Positions 4,784 through 10,012 of a stretch of DNA of 10,012 bases are shown one piece after another (within the stretch, counting starts at the first letter, position 1; every line of letters begins with the position of its first letter). Location: positions 1-10,012 of the forward strand of contig CAMEMX010000046.1 of NCBI GenBank assembly GCA_945927915.1. The letters run 5' to 3'. The notes below the pieces were generated by a model, which worked only from the letters and a program-made list of their open reading frames with translations, had not been told where the DNA came from and made no database searches. A program made the translations under genes and the position numbers. The stretch comes from an uncultured Clostridia bacterium (GTDB taxonomy: Bacteria > Bacillota > Clostridia > Oscillospirales > Oscillospiraceae).

Positions 4784-5515
4784 TCAGTTCTCTTTGTGAT
4801 TTGTCATGTTGAAGTGGAGCGCTTTCATGCCCTCCACTTCTTCGCAGACCTTCTGGAGACTACAGCTTTCGCAGTCCGTCATGCCGTTTTTCAGGATATG
4901 ATCCATCGCCTTTGTGATTCTCTCTGTCTCGCGGACTGCATCCTTCAGCGCCGGAAACGGGAAAGTGGGGTCTGTAATAAAAATCAGCTTCACACTGACG
5001 ATCCGCGCATTCTTGTGGAATTGCCGCAGCATCAGGTTGCCCACTTTCGTAAAGGTCAGACCTTTTTCCAGCGCCTGCTTGCTGACGCGGGCGCTCTCTG
5101 TGCCGTTGATTAGAGAAACGCGTGTCATGAAGCCCTCGGGACTTACATGATAACGGACAAACTCCATCTGTTTTACCGCGTTGTACAGGGCGTTTCCCTC
5201 GCCCAGGGTATCCGGCGCCACCCGAACCAGCGCGATCCGGGCATAGGAGGTATCCGCTGTCAGCTCCGGCAGGTCCTTGCCGATCAGCACGATCTCATCT
5301 TCCGTCACCAAAGCGGGGTCATCCGTTACCGCGGTTGCGCCCAATGCGAATAAACGGTCGCCGTTTCCCCCCAGCTCATACGCCATGTCCTGCCGGAAAA
5401 TCAGATTCTCCTTGCCCAGATCCCGCCAATCCACATCGCAGACCGGCAGCTCCCTGACCGACGCCTGCCGGCAAAGCGACAAAATGCGGGAAATAATCGG
5501 ATCATACAGTTTCAT
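4784..5515 (-). CDS. Acetyl-CoA synthase (AcsB/CdhC) middle-domain-like protein with C-terminal cysteine motif
   Basis: The product has 243 residues. Residues about 40-183 resemble, in order, the middle domain of the acetyl-CoA synthase/CdhC beta subunit as I remember it: RQDMAYELGG, then an EIVLIGKDLPEL segment like the family's VTVIGPDIDE, then SARVSKQALEKGLTFTKVGN like RISKDAxxKGxRxKHxG, then VSVKLIFITDP like the family's VQVTIYTD. The end carries C215-x2-C218-x5-C224, reminiscent of the start of the A-cluster motif CTxCQSFAPxHVC, plus a possible H235. Full acetyl-CoA synthases are about 730 residues (archaeal CdhC about 470). The later A-cluster cysteines, including CGCFEC, are missing here, so acetyl-CoA synthesis itself is unlikely. 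It may bind an iron-sulfur or nickel centre and serve the dehydratase-like enzyme of this operon. The ATG overlaps the upstream stop by one base; a GTG one codon earlier (5518) is possible. Confidence 0.65.
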   Translation of the reverse strand: MKLYDPIISRILSLCRQASVRELPVCDVDWRDLGKENLIFRQDMAYELGGNGDRLFALGATAVTDDPALVTEDEIVLIGKDLPELTADTSYARIALVRVAPDTLGEGNALYNAVKQMEFVRYHVSPEGFMTRVSLINGTESARVSKQALEKGLTFTKVGNLMLRQFHKNARIVSVKLIFITDPTFPFPALKDAVRETERITKAMDHILKNGMTDCESCSLQKVCEEVEGMKALHFNMTNHKEN

Positions 5516-5679
5516 CACAGGTGCTTATCCCGCTTGATCTTGTCATAGTGTTTCAGGAACAGAGGCTCCAGCGCTGCCGTGAGCTTCATATCCAGATTGA
5601 AGAAGTAAACAACAAACGTGACCACGAAAAAGGTCACCACGACCAGCGCCGCAATGGCGAGAATTTTCAGAACGATCAT
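5515..5679 (-). CDS. 54-residue single-span membrane peptide
   Basis: This is a short gene of 54 codons and a TGA stop. It starts with ATG at 5679 behind a strong GAGGAGGG site (5686-5693), 6 nt away, which overlaps the stop of the activator gene. Its stop shares one base with the ATG of the next gene (TGATG). The peptide begins MIVLKILAIAALVVVTFFVV and continues hydrophobic to about residue 28, a clear transmembrane helix. A tail follows with FLKHYDKIKRDKHL, rich in lysine. The basic tail suggests a cytoplasmic C-terminus and an outside N-terminus. No family is recognised. It may tether or stabilise the operon's soluble enzyme at the membrane, which is inference from position alone. Confidence 0.75.
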   Translation of the reverse strand: MIVLKILAIAALVVVTFFVVTFVVYFFNLDMKLTAALEPLFLKHYDKIKRDKHL

Positions 5680-5691
5680 AAGCAGCCCTCC

Positions 5692-6486
5692 TCAGCGTGC
5701 CATTGCCTTCTGGCGGGCAAATTCTGCCGCACCCAGAGCGCCGATCAACTGGGGATCAACAGGGAGATCGATGACCTTCAGCTTCAAAACCTTTTCAATG
5801 GCGGCTTTCAGGCCGTCATTTTTTGCGCATCCGCCCGTCAGAGTGATCCTGTCCGTAGCACCCGCCTTTTTGGACATCACGAAACAGCGCTTTGCCACCG
5901 AAAGCTCTATACCTGCGGCGATCTCATCCATGGGCTTCCCCTCGCCTACCAGAGAGATCACCTCGGATTCCGCAAACACCGTACACTGCGCGGTAATGGG
6001 GATCACATTCTTTGCCTTCAGGGACAGCCGGGAGAACTCCGTCAGATCCATTTCAAAGGCTCTTGCCATCGCCTCAAAAAACCGTCCGGTTCCCGCGGCG
6101 CATTTGTCATTCATGGCAAAGTCCAGCACCGTGCCATCCTTGTCTACCGCGATGCCTTTGACGTCCTGACCGCCGATATCGATGATGGCCTTGACGCTGG
6201 GATCCGCCACATGGACGCCCATGGCATGACAGCTGATCTCGGAGATATTCTCGTCGGCCGCGGGGACCTTGTTTCTTCCGTAGCCTGTGCCCACCAGATA
6301 GGCTAGCTCCTTGGGACTATGCAGCTCGGGAACCTGTGCGACCGCCTGATCCAGGGCAGCTTCGCAGCTGAGTACCGCGTTGATCCGGCTTCTCAGCGTA
6401 ACATTCGCCACCATCTTTCCGTTCTCATCAAGGATCACGCATTTTGTGTAAGTGCTGCCGGAATCACATCCGCCATAATACTTCAT
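5692..6486 (-). CDS. 2-hydroxyacyl-CoA dehydratase activator / BcrA-BadF-type ATPase
   Basis: The product has 264 residues, the normal size for HgdC-type activators. These homodimeric ASKHA-fold ATPases hold one [4Fe-4S] cluster between subunits and use ATP hydrolysis to push an electron at very low potential into their partner enzyme. Visible motifs are the phosphate-1 loop CDSGSTYTK at 7-15, IDIGGQD at 102-108, the cluster ligand C129 in DKCAAGTGRF, the second ligand C168 in QCTVFAESEV, and the adenosine-loop glycines in LTGGCAKN. The 39-residue spacing of the two cysteines equals that of HgdC from Acidaminococcus as I recall it (C127/C166). The start is ATG at 6486 behind AAGGAGG (6494-6500, 7 nt spacing). 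A TTG seven codons upstream lacks such a site. It lies 14 nt after the 520-residue subunit gene. Confidence 0.93.
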   Translation of the reverse strand: MKYYGGCDSGSTYTKCVILDENGKMVANVTLRSRINAVLSCEAALDQAVAQVPELHSPKELAYLVGTGYGRNKVPAADENISEISCHAMGVHVADPSVKAIIDIGGQDVKGIAVDKDGTVLDFAMNDKCAAGTGRFFEAMARAFEMDLTEFSRLSLKAKNVIPITAQCTVFAESEVISLVGEGKPMDEIAAGIELSVAKRCFVMSKKAGATDRITLTGGCAKNDGLKAAIEKVLKLKVIDLPVDPQLIGALGAAEFARQKAMAR

Positions 6487-6493
6487 ACGATTG

Positions 6494-6500
6494 CCTCCTT
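6494..6500 (-). promoter_or_regulatory. Ribosome binding site of the activator gene
   Basis: AAGGAGG on the minus strand, 7 nt before the ATG at 6486. It decides that start over the in-frame TTG at 6507, which would overlap the preceding gene. Confidence 0.8.
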
Positions 6501-8063
6501 TTACCAAGAGTGCTCGTCATGGAGGATCTCCAGAGACGGATCCAGAGGTTCCTCCTGCATGACGGCACGCATATAGCGGTTGATCTGATCTCGAACCCCC
6601 TGACGGGAAATGACACGGGGGTCAAACAGGTCATGGGTGACCCAGACCAGATGGATGCCCTTTTCTCTTGCCTTTTCCTCAAACTGGCCGTGCATGCCGT
6701 TGAGGGCTTTGCAGCTCATATGCTCCCAGAGGATGACCATATCGGCATGGAATTCCTCCACATACTCCCACAGCTCATCCAAAAGGACCTTGTAGCCGCC
6801 ATGGGTGCGGTTGCGCATGATCATGTTCTCCGTCAGCCAAGCAATATCATAGATCGCCTGCTCTCTGCCCTCAGGGGTATTGTCCTCGCAGAGCGTCTTG
6901 GTGGAGACCATGGAAAGCATATCGGTCAGCGGCACAATACCCCAGCAGTTTACCAGCCACAGCAGGAAGTCGAAGTAGAAGTGGGACTGCACGCCCCAGA
7001 TGATGGCGCGGTGGCGGTATTCCTTCGCCATCTTCTTTTTTGCCTTGTATGCCTTTTGTGCCAGAGCATCGATTTTCCGGTCCGCTTCCACGAATTCGGG
7101 GATCTTGCCGCAGATGGCCATGTAATTGGTCTCAGTATACAGCGCCAGATTGGAGCCAAAGACCTGCGGATAGTCGGTCTTGTTCATATCCAGCCAATCC
7201 ATGCGGTATCGGGTGGAAATATTCACACGCTTGGCGCACTCGAAATAGTAATCCCAGTCCCACTTTTCGCCGGTATGCTCCTCAATGAAAGCGATCGCAT
7301 TGCGGATCTCCTGCGCCGCATACTCCTGCACATCCGCCTCTCTGTGACGCAGCGGAGCAGCCAACTGGAACACGGGGATGCCGTCCTCCAACTCCAGGCG
7401 CTTGGAAATGACGCCGTTGCTCATCAGAGAGCCGTCGCAGGTGGTGTTGCATTGAATGGCGCAGGCGCCCAAAACAGGAGCATCATCGTCAATGGACACG
7501 CCGGCCTCAGCCTCCGGCATGGGGCAGACATCGCCTGCCAGACCATACTCCTGGGCGACATCGATGTAGTGCACCGCGGCGTTCTGGTTCAGCAGCACAG
7601 AAACATATGTGGAGGGTGTTTCCCGGCTAAGGCCCTTCAGCGTGGGGAAGCCCATCATGACGGCAGTCATCTCATTTTCGTCCACCAGAACCACTTTCTT
7701 GGAAAACTCCGTGTCGTTGCCGATGCGCCGGTCGCCCCGGAACAGATTGTTCAGCAGCTTCGCCACATCCGACACGACCAGATCCTGCTCCGTGTGGCAG
7801 ATGCGCAGGTATTCCCCCCGCAGGCCCTGGGTATGCCTGTCCAGCATCATCGGCACCGCCAGATAATTTGCCATCCAGCGGTAGCGGAGCATTGCCTTGA
7901 TGTTCCGGGGCTTCATGATGAATCCGGCAAGAATGCCCATAATATGCAGCCAGCGCCAGTAATCGTACAAGGTATCCGCGAAGCCGCGCCATTCCCGGCG
8001 CTTGCGCACTTTGCCGTTGGTATACAAATCGCCCAAGCGGTCTTTTCCCACTTCCTTAGCCAC
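6501..8063 (-). CDS. 2-hydroxyacyl-CoA dehydratase / benzoyl-CoA reductase family protein, large subunit
   Basis: The product has 520 residues from the GTG at 8063. It belongs to the HgdA/HgdB/BcrB/BcrC family, whose members bind a [4Fe-4S] cluster with cysteines and accept electrons from the ATP-driven activator to dehydrate or reduce an acyl-CoA, or another small molecule in double-cubane relatives. Probable ligands are C180 (DVCPMPEAE), C209 in CNTTCDGSLMSN, and C451 in ILWEHMSCKALNGMHGQ; the last is followed by the family's typical tail with a THDLFDPR segment. It is longer than most relatives (about 380-480), mainly by an N-terminal region before C180. The start was chosen because GGGAGGT lies 8 nt upstream and GTG overlaps the previous stop (GTGGCTAA); an ATG at 8153 is in frame but lies deep in the upstream gene. 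The substrate is unknown. Confidence 0.88.
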   Translation of the reverse strand: MAKEVGKDRLGDLYTNGKVRKRREWRGFADTLYDYWRWLHIMGILAGFIMKPRNIKAMLRYRWMANYLAVPMMLDRHTQGLRGEYLRICHTEQDLVVSDVAKLLNNLFRGDRRIGNDTEFSKKVVLVDENEMTAVMMGFPTLKGLSRETPSTYVSVLLNQNAAVHYIDVAQEYGLAGDVCPMPEAEAGVSIDDDAPVLGACAIQCNTTCDGSLMSNGVISKRLELEDGIPVFQLAAPLRHREADVQEYAAQEIRNAIAFIEEHTGEKWDWDYYFECAKRVNISTRYRMDWLDMNKTDYPQVFGSNLALYTETNYMAICGKIPEFVEADRKIDALAQKAYKAKKKMAKEYRHRAIIWGVQSHFYFDFLLWLVNCWGIVPLTDMLSMVSTKTLCEDNTPEGREQAIYDIAWLTENMIMRNRTHGGYKVLLDELWEYVEEFHADMVILWEHMSCKALNGMHGQFEEKAREKGIHLVWVTHDLFDPRVISRQGVRDQINRYMRAVMQEEPLDPSLEILHDEHSW

Positions 8064-9252
8064 GCTTCGCACCTCCCTGTATCTTCTTGATCTCGATGCT
8101 CTCCACAAACGCCTGCACGCGGGTGCGCATCTGACCGGAAACACCGATGGCATAGGGGCGGTCTACCGCCAAAACGGGGTAGCCGTAATCCTCCCGCAGC
8201 ACATGGGCGCCCACCATTTTTTCGTACGCCCAGGGGTCGCAGAACTTCACCTGTTCGTAAATAATGCCATCCGCCCTGTATTCCTCCGCCAGAGACGCAA
8301 CATAGCGCCGCCGCTCCTGTATTTTTGCCTGATTCATAAATCGCGGACACTGTCCCCGGTACATATACTGCCGGCAGATCTGGGTCAGGGCGTCCTCATC
8401 GTCGGTAAGCACGAGGGGGTCTCTGCCGGGGAAGGAGCCGTAGCAGAACCGGTCGGCGCAGACATAGGCGCCGGAATCTTCGATCAGCCGCACCACATCC
8501 ACATCATCCACCTCAGACCCGACCAGGACCACTCTCGCCCGGAACCGGTTTTTGGCATCCGGCTGGCACGTTTTCAGCTCCTCCAACGTTTCTTCCAGCT
8601 TGTCGATCAGCAGATACTTGGGAGCAGCGTAGGTCACCATGGTAATGATATGATACTCATAACCGGTGATCCGCGGCATATCCCCCTTGCGGAACTCGCC
8701 GATGGCGCGGATCAGCTCGCAAACCCGGTTGTGTTCCTGCACAGCCTTACGGATGGCGGCATCGGAAACATCAATGCCGTAGTGCTCCTGCAAGGGCTTC
8801 AGAATATGATTCCTGCATTGCAGCACATAGAGATTCAGGCCGTTATCGTCGGCTTTCATGGGAACCTCCATGTATTCATAGAAGAATTTCTCCTTCTCGT
8901 TGGTCTTCAGCAGTTCCATATTCTCCACGCAGCGGTTCATCATGGTGCAGCCGTCCGGCGTGATCATGCAGTCGGCAAAATTGAAGCCGCCTTCGATTGC
9001 CCGCTCCAGCAGCGCCCGGGAATACTCGCACAGGAAGCTCGTCATATAGTAAGTTCCCATCTCCATCGAGCCGGTACGCGGCGCACGCAGCCGTGCGGAA
9101 AATGCCCCCTCCAGATTCAGCAGGGGTTCGGGCACATTCTCGCAGGTGTAGGCAACGCAGATCTTGCCGTCATTTTGCGCCTGACGGATCAGGTCATTGT
9201 TGGCGTCCTCCAGCAGCCGCTCAAAGTAGTACAGATGCTTCAAGTCCTTCAT
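8056..9252 (-). CDS. 2-hydroxyacyl-CoA dehydratase / benzoyl-CoA reductase family protein, small subunit
   Basis: The product has 398 residues, close to HgdB and BcrB-type subunits (about 380-430). It should pair with the 520-residue product to form a heterodimer holding iron-sulfur clusters near the substrate site. Candidate cluster cysteines follow the family order: C75 in SFLCEYSRALLE, C102 in PDGCTMMNR (where the family has a cysteine-aspartate pair, here C-T), and C338 in YEQVKFCDPWAYEK, a strong match to the conserved FC motif before the last alpha/beta unit. Another cysteine, in DRFCYGSFPG, lies at the usual middle position. The last region has PVLAVDRPY where many relatives have a (L/Y)xxEIDQ strand. 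The start is ATG at 9252 with a GAGGTG site about 7 nt upstream; it lies 16 nt after the CooC-like gene. The substrate cannot be assigned. Confidence 0.88.
   Translation of the reverse strand: MKDLKHLYYFERLLEDANNDLIRQAQNDGKICVAYTCENVPEPLLNLEGAFSARLRAPRTGSMEMGTYYMTSFLCEYSRALLERAIEGGFNFADCMITPDGCTMMNRCVENMELLKTNEKEKFFYEYMEVPMKADDNGLNLYVLQCRNHILKPLQEHYGIDVSDAAIRKAVQEHNRVCELIRAIGEFRKGDMPRITGYEYHIITMVTYAAPKYLLIDKLEETLEELKTCQPDAKNRFRARVVLVGSEVDDVDVVRLIEDSGAYVCADRFCYGSFPGRDPLVLTDDEDALTQICRQYMYRGQCPRFMNQAKIQERRRYVASLAEEYRADGIIYEQVKFCDPWAYEKMVGAHVLREDYGYPVLAVDRPYAIGVSGQMRTRVQAFVESIEIKKIQGGAKRG
8071..8077 (-). promoter_or_regulatory. Ribosome binding site that selects a GTG start
   Basis: GGGAGGT lies inside the last codons of the upstream subunit gene, 8 nt before the GTG at 8063. 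The GTG overlaps the upstream TAA within GTGGCTAA, an 8-nt coding overlap typical of translational coupling, which would help keep the two subunits in equal amounts. Confidence 0.75.
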
Positions 9253-9268
9253 TCAAACCCACCTCTTT

Positions 9269-10012
9269 TTATAGAATCTGCATCCCGGTCAGGCCCTTTT
9301 CCACGCCCCGAAGGATCTCGGCATCCTCCGCCAGCGAGAAAACGCTGTTGCCCAGCATATCGCTCATAGCCATTGCCCGATCCTCTCCGATGCAGGCAAG
9401 CAGCGGGATTTCTCCCGTGTCCAGTTGTCCCTGCAGGCGCATATCCGGCATCCGGTTGACGATCAGGCCAACTTTTTCAAACATTACCAGTTCCTTTGCC
9501 ACAGTATGGATGGTTTTCACCACCTGCAGACCCTTGCGGCTGGCATCGGAGACCAGGATCAGATGGGTCACCTTCTCCATGACCCGCCGGTTAATCTGCT
9601 CAATGCCCGCCTCACCGTCGATCACAACATAGTCAAAGCTCCCGGCGATCAGGGTGATGATCTGCTTCAGATAGGCATTTACCTTGCAGTAGCAGCCCGC
9701 TGCCTCCGGCCTGCCGATGGCAAGGAAGGAGATGCTCTTCTGCTCTGTCAGGGCATCCATCAAACGGTACCTGGCCTCTCCCAGCATCTCAATGGCGGCG
9801 GCGGTGTTGCCCTCCTCCGCGCTGTGGACAAAGGCCTTGCGGATGTCATCCACAGTGGAACAGACCTCCACCCCAAGCGCCGTCGCCAGACCCACAGCCG
9901 GGTCGGCGTCAATGGCCAGAATTCTTTTATCCGGATATTTCTGCGCCAGCAGCCGGACGGTGAGTGCGGAAACGGAAGTTTTCCCCACGCCGCCCTTGCC
10001 CACCAGCGCAAT
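9269..10012 (-). CDS. CooC-type P-loop ATPase (metal-centre maturation family), 5' end missing
   Basis: The frame runs off the right edge; the visible part reads I-A-L-V then GKGGVGKTS. Since this family normally begins M-K-I-A-V/L, only about two codons are missing, and the GTG at 10003 is an internal valine. CooC proteins are dimeric SIMIBI-class NTPases that help insert nickel into carbon monoxide dehydrogenase; relatives such as AcsF serve acetyl-CoA synthase. Visible motifs are the deviant Walker A (KGGVGKT), the switch I region IDADPAVGLATALG, the GCYCKVN segment whose C-x-C (codons at 9686-9694) corresponds to the metal-binding C-x-C of CooC, the VVIDGEAGIEQINR switch II region, and ILVSDASRKGLQ. 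About 248 residues fits the family length. No carbon monoxide dehydrogenase is in the window, so its client is probably an enzyme of this operon. Confidence 0.88.
   Translation of the reverse strand: MALVGKGGVGKTSVSALTVRLLAQKYPDKRILAIDADPAVGLATALGVEVCSTVDDIRKAFVHSAEEGNTAAAIEMLGEARYRLMDALTEQKSISFLAIGRPEAAGCYCKVNAYLKQIITLIAGSFDYVVIDGEAGIEQINRRVMEKVTHLILVSDASRKGLQVVKTIHTVAKELVMFEKVGLIVNRMPDMRLQGQLDTGEIPLLACIGEDRAMAMSDMLGNSVFSLAEDAEILRGVEKGLTGMQIL

Follow-up and report, generated by a model that had tools for sequence, protein, structure and literature searches.

Relation to described systems

Enzymes of the benzoyl-CoA reductase/2-hydroxyacyl-CoA dehydratase (BCR/HAD, or HGD-D) superfamily receive their electrons from ATP-dependent activators; in the class I benzoyl-CoA reductases of the Bzd/Mbd type (BzdNO, with the activator BzdPQ), the double cubane of BzdN is regarded as an electron store that serves the three-Cys cluster of BzdO (excerpt of PMC11971306). 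Nickel insertion is the task of CooC, CooT and CooJ for carbon monoxide dehydrogenase (CODH), and of AcsF for acetyl-CoA synthase (ACS). Genes recalling both kinds of system stand together in the stretch of DNA described here, the 10012-base contig C46 of an uncultured Clostridia bacterium (genome G000; 1.47 Mb, 85% complete), which was analysed as a whole and is referred to as the window: its right half carries six minus-strand genes, for a CooC-like ATPase, two HGD-D subunits (DC and HO), an activator (ACT), a small membrane-type peptide, and an ACS-like protein (ACSL). We read this operon, with roughly even confidence, as an ATP-driven reductase of the BCR/HAD superfamily joined to a dedicated CooC/ACSL metal-maturation module, the metal probably being nickel.

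Compared with BzdNO/BzdPQ, the operon has a single activator gene and, in addition, CooC, ACSL and the membrane peptide, and no aromatic pathway was seen with it; DC falls short of the BzdN equivalog model TIGR03190 (80 bits against a cut-off of 453.8). DCCP and DCCPR of Carboxydothermus hydrogenoformans share with DC and the activator the combination of a six-Cys double cubane and an HgdC-like reductase; DCCP is a homodimer, however, unlike the DC-HO pair, and its equivalog model NF040772 gives 128.8 bits for DC and 36.5 for HO, against a cut-off of 350. ACSL has the middle-domain fold of AcsB/CdhC but lacks their N-terminal domain, their A-cluster domain and the CGC motif. From the CODH nickel machinery the present loci share CooC with its CxC motif, CooT and a small His-rich protein, here however in genomes without a CODH over cut-off and beside a double-cubane-type reductase. 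The IsrA operon of Acetobacterium wieringae (IsrA, two HypA, HypB, and a ferredoxin) resembles the surroundings of many copies of the operon, which are accompanied by a like flavoprotein with HypA/HypB; DC, HO, CooC and ACSL are not part of it in the excerpt of PMC10134865. Plasmalogen synthase PlsA/PlsR, likened here by description only, has the BCR/HAD superfamily in common; PlsA (about 128 kDa) acts on membrane lipids, and the excerpt of PMC12838417 mentions no nickel proteins with the pair. A precedent is the activation complex of methyl-CoM reductase, built from different proteins, in which ATP-driven electrons reach a nickel site by way of nitrogenase-like Fe-S clusters (excerpt of PMC12176620).

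All parts of the operon except the peptide belong to known superfamilies; the combination and the stand-alone ACSL appear to be undescribed in the literature searched. One open-access full-text library, with subscription journals and preprint servers outside its reach, returned no publication with this gene set, which bears out, within that literature, the statement of an earlier sequence-only reading of the window that no described pathway uses it; the main text of an eLife study on the genomic context of CODH does not contain the word 'dehydratase'. 'Candidatus Galacturonibacter', one of the acetogenic Lachnospiraceae without canonical CODH/ACS, was considered as a lead and set aside, the excerpt of PMC7000372 naming prismane/CODH-family genes and not this set, with the genome itself outside our searches.

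A predicted Bzd-like reductase core

DC (8056..9252, minus strand, 398 aa) and HO (6501..8063, minus strand, 520 aa, from a GTG start at about 8063, as against 8153 in the list of open reading frames) match PF06050 over cut-off, with 278.8 and 118.8 bits; the HgdC/BadF-type ATP-dependent activator (5692..6486, minus strand) reaches 215.8 bits in TIGR00241, whose cut-off is 125.4, and these matches together place the three proteins in the BCR/HAD superfamily. Cysteines 37, 75, 102, 270, 302, and 338 of DC occupy the six double-cubane positions; its best match in the PDB is BzdN (E 8.5e-22), whose cluster ligands 36, 73, 100, 263, 293, and 327 all align with them, and they are kept in 53 of 53 aligned sequences, save for C270 (52/53). 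Cysteines 180, 209, and 451 of HO form a predicted three-Cys [4Fe-4S]-type site resembling that of BzdO, and its Cys373 is likewise conserved among the operon copies. The activator has six invariant cysteines in all 64 aligned sequences. By sequence alignment, the cysteine sets of DC and HO match those of BzdN and BzdO; on this likeness DC would hold an [8Fe-9S] double cubane and HO a [4Fe-4S] cluster, and the two subunits, being homologous to BzdN and BzdO, probably work like them. The six-Cys DC, the three-Cys HO and the activator, together with the conserved CooC-like and ACS-like partners, support the earlier suggestion of an ATP-driven reductase with an unusual metal centre.

A stand-alone ACS middle domain and a membrane peptide

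ACSL (4784..5515, minus strand, 243 aa) shows the ACS middle-domain fold (PF03598), followed by a CxxCx5C tail, after which the protein ends; the tail is invariant and holds the only three invariant cysteines of ACSL. The equivalog model of ACS, TIGR00316, gives it 23.2 bits against a cut-off of 355.95. Comparison of the tail with the A-cluster cysteines stops short, the profile comparison ending at column 193 and the structural alignment reaching residue 217 only, in a stretch of low confidence, and we claim no equivalence. The CGC dinickel motif, which we take to be the mark of the A-cluster domain of ACS, is present in the true ACS of the window's genome.

The membrane-type peptide (5515..5679, minus strand, 54 aa) has a single hydrophobic stretch and the conserved motifs YFFNLDMK and KHYDK. 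The pattern YFFNLDMK...KHYDK recurs in 54 of the 62 gaps between activator and ACSL genes, and BLAST adds three more (L032, L035, L050); a similar peptide adjoins HO in the paralogous loci L098 and L100. The peptide constitutes a conserved family with no Pfam match over cut-off and no NCBIfam match.

Conservation of the gene set

Scanning the ACSL alignment against one genome per species (84,980 species) yielded 233 relatives, of which the best 80, together with one locus from a search of the window's order (L009), make up the 81 loci compared here. Going by their record titles, the best 80 of the 233 relatives belong chiefly to Lachnospiraceae and Oscillospiraceae/Ruminococcaceae, and further include Clostridium gasigenes, Eubacterium sp. 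14-2, Pseudobutyrivibrio isolates, and four Spirochaete records. Gene order was counted where the sequence extends 3.7 kb or more upstream of ACSL, as it does in 62 loci; the other 19 end too early. All five large genes occur together at 50 of these 62, in the order CooC-DC-HO-ACT-ACSL at 45 and DC-HO-ACT-CooC-ACSL at 5; the remaining loci read CooC-ACT-ACSL (5), CooC-ACSL (5), or DC-HO-ACT-ACSL (2). This confirms the six-gene minus-strand operon of the sequence-only reading, which had proposed gene order across Clostridia as a check: the CooC-like and ACS-like genes do keep their place beside the reductase genes. A chance or local gene set was rejected in view of the conservation across loci and in the order-wide sample. 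Carriage on plasmids was rejected, the cluster having no match in the plasmid collection at megablast sensitivity, and no phage families were found for ACSL, the peptide, and HO at E 0.001.

DC and ACSL co-occur

In a sample of 150 genomes from the family of Pseudobutyrivibrio xylanivorans (G246, the sample centre and, like G265, a carrier known before sampling), ACSL was found at E<=0.001 in 15 genomes and DC at E<=1e-20 in 19. One ACSL hit was dropped (G282; 26 bits within a 723-aa frame, likely a true ACS), as were five DC hits of 75-84 bits, taken as other HGD-D proteins; the kept hits are full-length DC at 544 bits or more and ACSL above 200 bits. The genomes with DC and those with ACSL are then the identical 14 (Fisher p 5.6e-20, with kinship ignored), two of which, G302 and G330, have a second ACSL fragment as well. 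DC and ACSL also coincide in 3 of 245 genomes of the window's order, the window's own included, and DC is present in 27 of 28 chosen ACSL genomes. Where an ACSL locus is without DC-HO, the same genome carries DC-HO elsewhere, in the cases fetched.

The two differ in copy number. In 7 of the 28 genomes more than one DC gene scores above 500 bits; for ACSL, a Pfam search of the same 28 gave no genome with a second copy, and it overlooked the gene in G252, G261, and G263, which have it according to the species-wide scan. DC-HO pairs are also found apart from CooC/ACSL, and ACSL in turn stands with CooC or CooT-CooC at places without DC-HO. Many reductases with one ACSL per genome are the pattern expected of a shared maturase or scaffold, and the several DC-HO paralogues of some genomes suggest more than one substrate. 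ATP-driven reductases have multiplied unusually in G267 (L094-L100), a genome of 2.2 Mb in which seven DC genes score above 500 bits.

CooC- and CooT-type proteins where no CODH passes the cut-off

CooC (9269..10012, minus strand; 247 codons read, the 5' end being lost at the contig end) has its best solved match in C. hydrogenoformans CooC (3kje; phmmer, E 1.2e-11). The deviant Walker A motif GKGGVGKT and the metal motif GCYC, the two marks of CooC nickel ATPases, are present in all 62 aligned sequences, the window's included; the CxC pair is the counterpart of Cys112 and Cys114, which make up the zinc/nickel site of CooC-1 (excerpt of PMC6006190). With 60 of 62 loci, CooC is the only near-constant one among the accessory proteins, because HypA, CooT and the full-length flavoprotein neighbour described below are each missing from some genomes.

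CooT, a CODH nickel chaperone, lies 1-6 nt upstream of CooC in eight loci, giving the arrangement CooT-CooC-ACSL, and stands beside DC-HO together with a His-rich protein (no Pfam match) in three (L094, L110, L113). In these three loci the genes for CooT and the His-rich protein run divergently to DC-HO, and L094 has a gene for an MntP-type efflux pump after them. PF10133 confirms CooT in 6 of the 11 genomes concerned (L064, L071, L088, L094, L110, L113), the other five being assigned by likeness, and none of the six has a CODH over cut-off. HypA occurs in 29 of the 81 loci and HypB in 7; HypA is also divergent from DC in L097 and lies near DC on G266:C47 and G268:C43. Two paralogous loci have further genes of this kind or other neighbours: L100 (G267:C23) carries, at 6178-8344, two CobW-family GTPases (PF02492) beside DC-HO-peptide-activator, a possible metal-chaperone link, and in L097 a carbonic anhydrase gene (PF00484, 5653-6231) overlaps HO or follows directly 3' of it.

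True ACS is found in 5 of 28 carrier genomes and CODH over cut-off in 9 (G245, too, has a CODH end piece, of 153 bits); at least one of them is present in 10, the window's genome included, and neither in 18, which are thus without the CODH or ACS client that a CODH/ACS maturation cluster would serve. The 18 include the near-complete G071 and G145, as well as records without a metagenome-assembly label, Clostridium gasigenes and Eubacterium sp. 14-2 among them. In the window's genome a true CODH/ACS cluster, which includes a separate CooC, reads CooS-CooC-AcsB on G000:C111 (L004). The sequence-only reading had named a complete CODH/ACS cluster or a standard hydroxyacyl-CoA fermentation cluster immediately outside the window as something that might explain the set; the CODH/ACS of the source genome lies on this other contig, and at the place in question the closest relative has HypB-FlavoOR-HypA. 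The idea of a machine that repairs a corrinoid or the nickel site of ACS is less well supported, because carriers without ACS retain the operon.

A flavoprotein neighbour

FlavoOR, a flavoprotein of 900 aa with Pyr_redox_2, Fer4_20 and ferredoxin domains, is found in 38 of the 81 loci; it resembles IsrA of A. wieringae in size, domains and HypA/HypB neighbours, a likeness by description only. IsrA is a putative isoprene reductase; HypA is close by in 73% of the 988 neighbourhoods of its homologues, which have a Cys6 site that has been compared to cluster A of ACS (excerpt of PMC10134865). FlavoOR, for which five candidates were scored per genome, is present in 31 genomes of the 150-genome family sample, namely in 11 of those 14 that carry ACSL and in 20 of the remaining 136; it is thus associated with the operon and not required.

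Proposed mechanism and alternatives

In the mechanism that these observations suggest, the activator would be supplied with an electron by a ferredoxin-like protein, a part that the adjacent NAD(P)H flavoprotein may play in many relatives. Hydrolysing ATP, it would drive electrons at low potential into DC and its [8Fe-9S] double cubane; from there they would pass to HO, at whose three-Cys cluster site the substrate would be reduced. The membrane peptide may anchor the complex; CooC, joined in many relatives by CooT and/or HypA/HypB, would deliver a metal, most likely nickel; and ACSL would be the shared partner, a putative maturase or carrier, by which this metal is installed in, or held at, DC-HO. 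The pattern of the set points to a so far undescribed type of nickel-dependent reductase among anaerobic bacteria. More tentatively, and with somewhat less confidence than in the reductase-plus-maturation reading itself, we propose that it is the first nickel-dependent member of the double-cubane/benzoyl-CoA reductase group: a membrane-attached, ATP-driven Ni-Fe-S reductase of gut and rumen anaerobes, with several paralogues in some genomes and its own maturation, in which the free-standing ACSL, its tail binding metal, would act with CooC, CooT and HypA. If true, ATP-fired, nitrogenase-like electron delivery and the nickel machinery of CODH/ACS would be joined in one system, and Lachnospiraceae, Oscillospiraceae, and Treponemataceae would be credited with a new reductive chemistry. 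The presence of proteins named as CODH or ACS subunits in genomes such as those of Pseudobutyrivibrio would be accounted for as well (a true ACS was not found in the Pseudobutyrivibrio genomes tested), and it offers a concrete route to test the functions of the ACS middle domain and of CooC in isolation.

Several observations weigh against a nickel-maturation role. The CGC dinickel motif is absent from ACSL, whose tail has a low-confidence structure prediction; nickel binding is not known for every CooC (excerpt of PMC6006190), and CooC may here be a conformational or Fe-S ATPase and not a nickel donor. DC-HO-ACT-ACSL occurs without an adjacent CooC at L040 and L076 (contig edge), and G262, the exception among the 28, has CooT-CooC-ACSL with no DC found. 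CooT is present in just 12 of the 28 genomes and was not found in the window's incomplete genome, where HypA was not found either (nor was it in G253 and G265); full-length FlavoOR was not found in G000, G145, G250, and G265. HypA and HypB may, moreover, serve the flavoprotein, because they adjoin IsrA-like flavoproteins in organisms such as Acetobacterium (excerpt of PMC10134865).

As the main alternative, to which we give some weight, though clearly short of even, ACSL would be a substrate- or partner-binding subunit that presents an acyl-CoA or a protein to DC-HO, with CooC as a folding or conformational ATPase without nickel. ACSL retains the ACS middle-domain fold, which in CODH/ACS contacts CoFeSP (AlphaFold3 model and map) and CoA (excerpt of PMC12289521), and its co-occurrence with DC suits a subunit as well as a maturase; a subunit, however, fits poorly with the finding of at most one ACSL per genome where 7 of 28 genomes have several DC, with its pairing with CooC or CooT-CooC away from DC-HO, and with sole invariant cysteines that form a metal-like tail after the middle domain. 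It is rather unlikely that CooC, CooT, HypA, HypB, and ACSL all serve the IsrA-like flavoprotein, with DC-HO merely its low-potential partner, for example in hydrogenating an unsaturated compound: the frequency of FlavoOR and HypA at the loci, the enrichment of FlavoOR in ACSL genomes, and the HypA neighbours and Cys6 site of IsrA homologues speak for this, but ACSL is present where full-length FlavoOR was not found (G145, G250, G265, G278, G291), FlavoOR is present in 20 of the 136 ACSL-free genomes of the family sample, and ACSL tracks DC without exception in both samples. Slightly less probable still is a reductase of membrane lipids or of another ester or enoyl substrate, like PlsA/PlsR, which are BCR/HAD-family proteins making vinyl-ether lipids (excerpt of PMC12838417); the conserved membrane-type peptide would then hold the complex at the membrane and the metal would be secondary, but CooC, CooT, and ACSL are left unexplained, and no lipid gene was recognised among the Pfam-scanned neighbours, a scan short of full annotation.

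Two more familiar roles we consider very improbable, in equal measure. ATP-driven reductive activation of the Wood-Ljungdahl ACS or of a corrinoid protein would suit the CooS-CooC-AcsB cluster of the window's genome and the true ACS of four other carriers among the 28, but was rejected as a role for the whole set on the 18 carriers, the near-complete G071 and G145 among them, in which no CODH passes the cut-off and ACSL is all there is of ACS. HGD-D subunits with an activator are also what an ordinary 2-hydroxyacyl-CoA dehydratase of amino-acid fermentation would have; this too was rejected, the HadB and HadC models NF052455 and NF052456 giving 18.8 and 63.4 bits, far under their cut-offs of 750 and 700, and the six-Cys DC and the CooC/ACSL genes speaking against it as well.

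Genes around the operon

The closest relative of the window has identities of 92% in CooC, 95% in DC, 97% in HO, and 87% in ACSL, and is split over two contigs, HypB-FlavoOR-HypA-CooC-DC and HO-(truncated ACT)-TM-ACSL; because of the first of these, HypA, the flavoprotein and HypB probably lie just to the right of the window in the source genome. Between HO and the peptide, the second contig has an activator reading frame of only 86 aa (L010, 1556-1813), either a truncated copy or an assembly artefact. The left half of the window, on the other strand, holds nrdD (247-2631), whose product is an anaerobic ribonucleotide reductase ending in a glutaredoxin domain; the next genes encode a zinc-ribbon coiled-coil protein and a thioredoxin-reductase-like protein.

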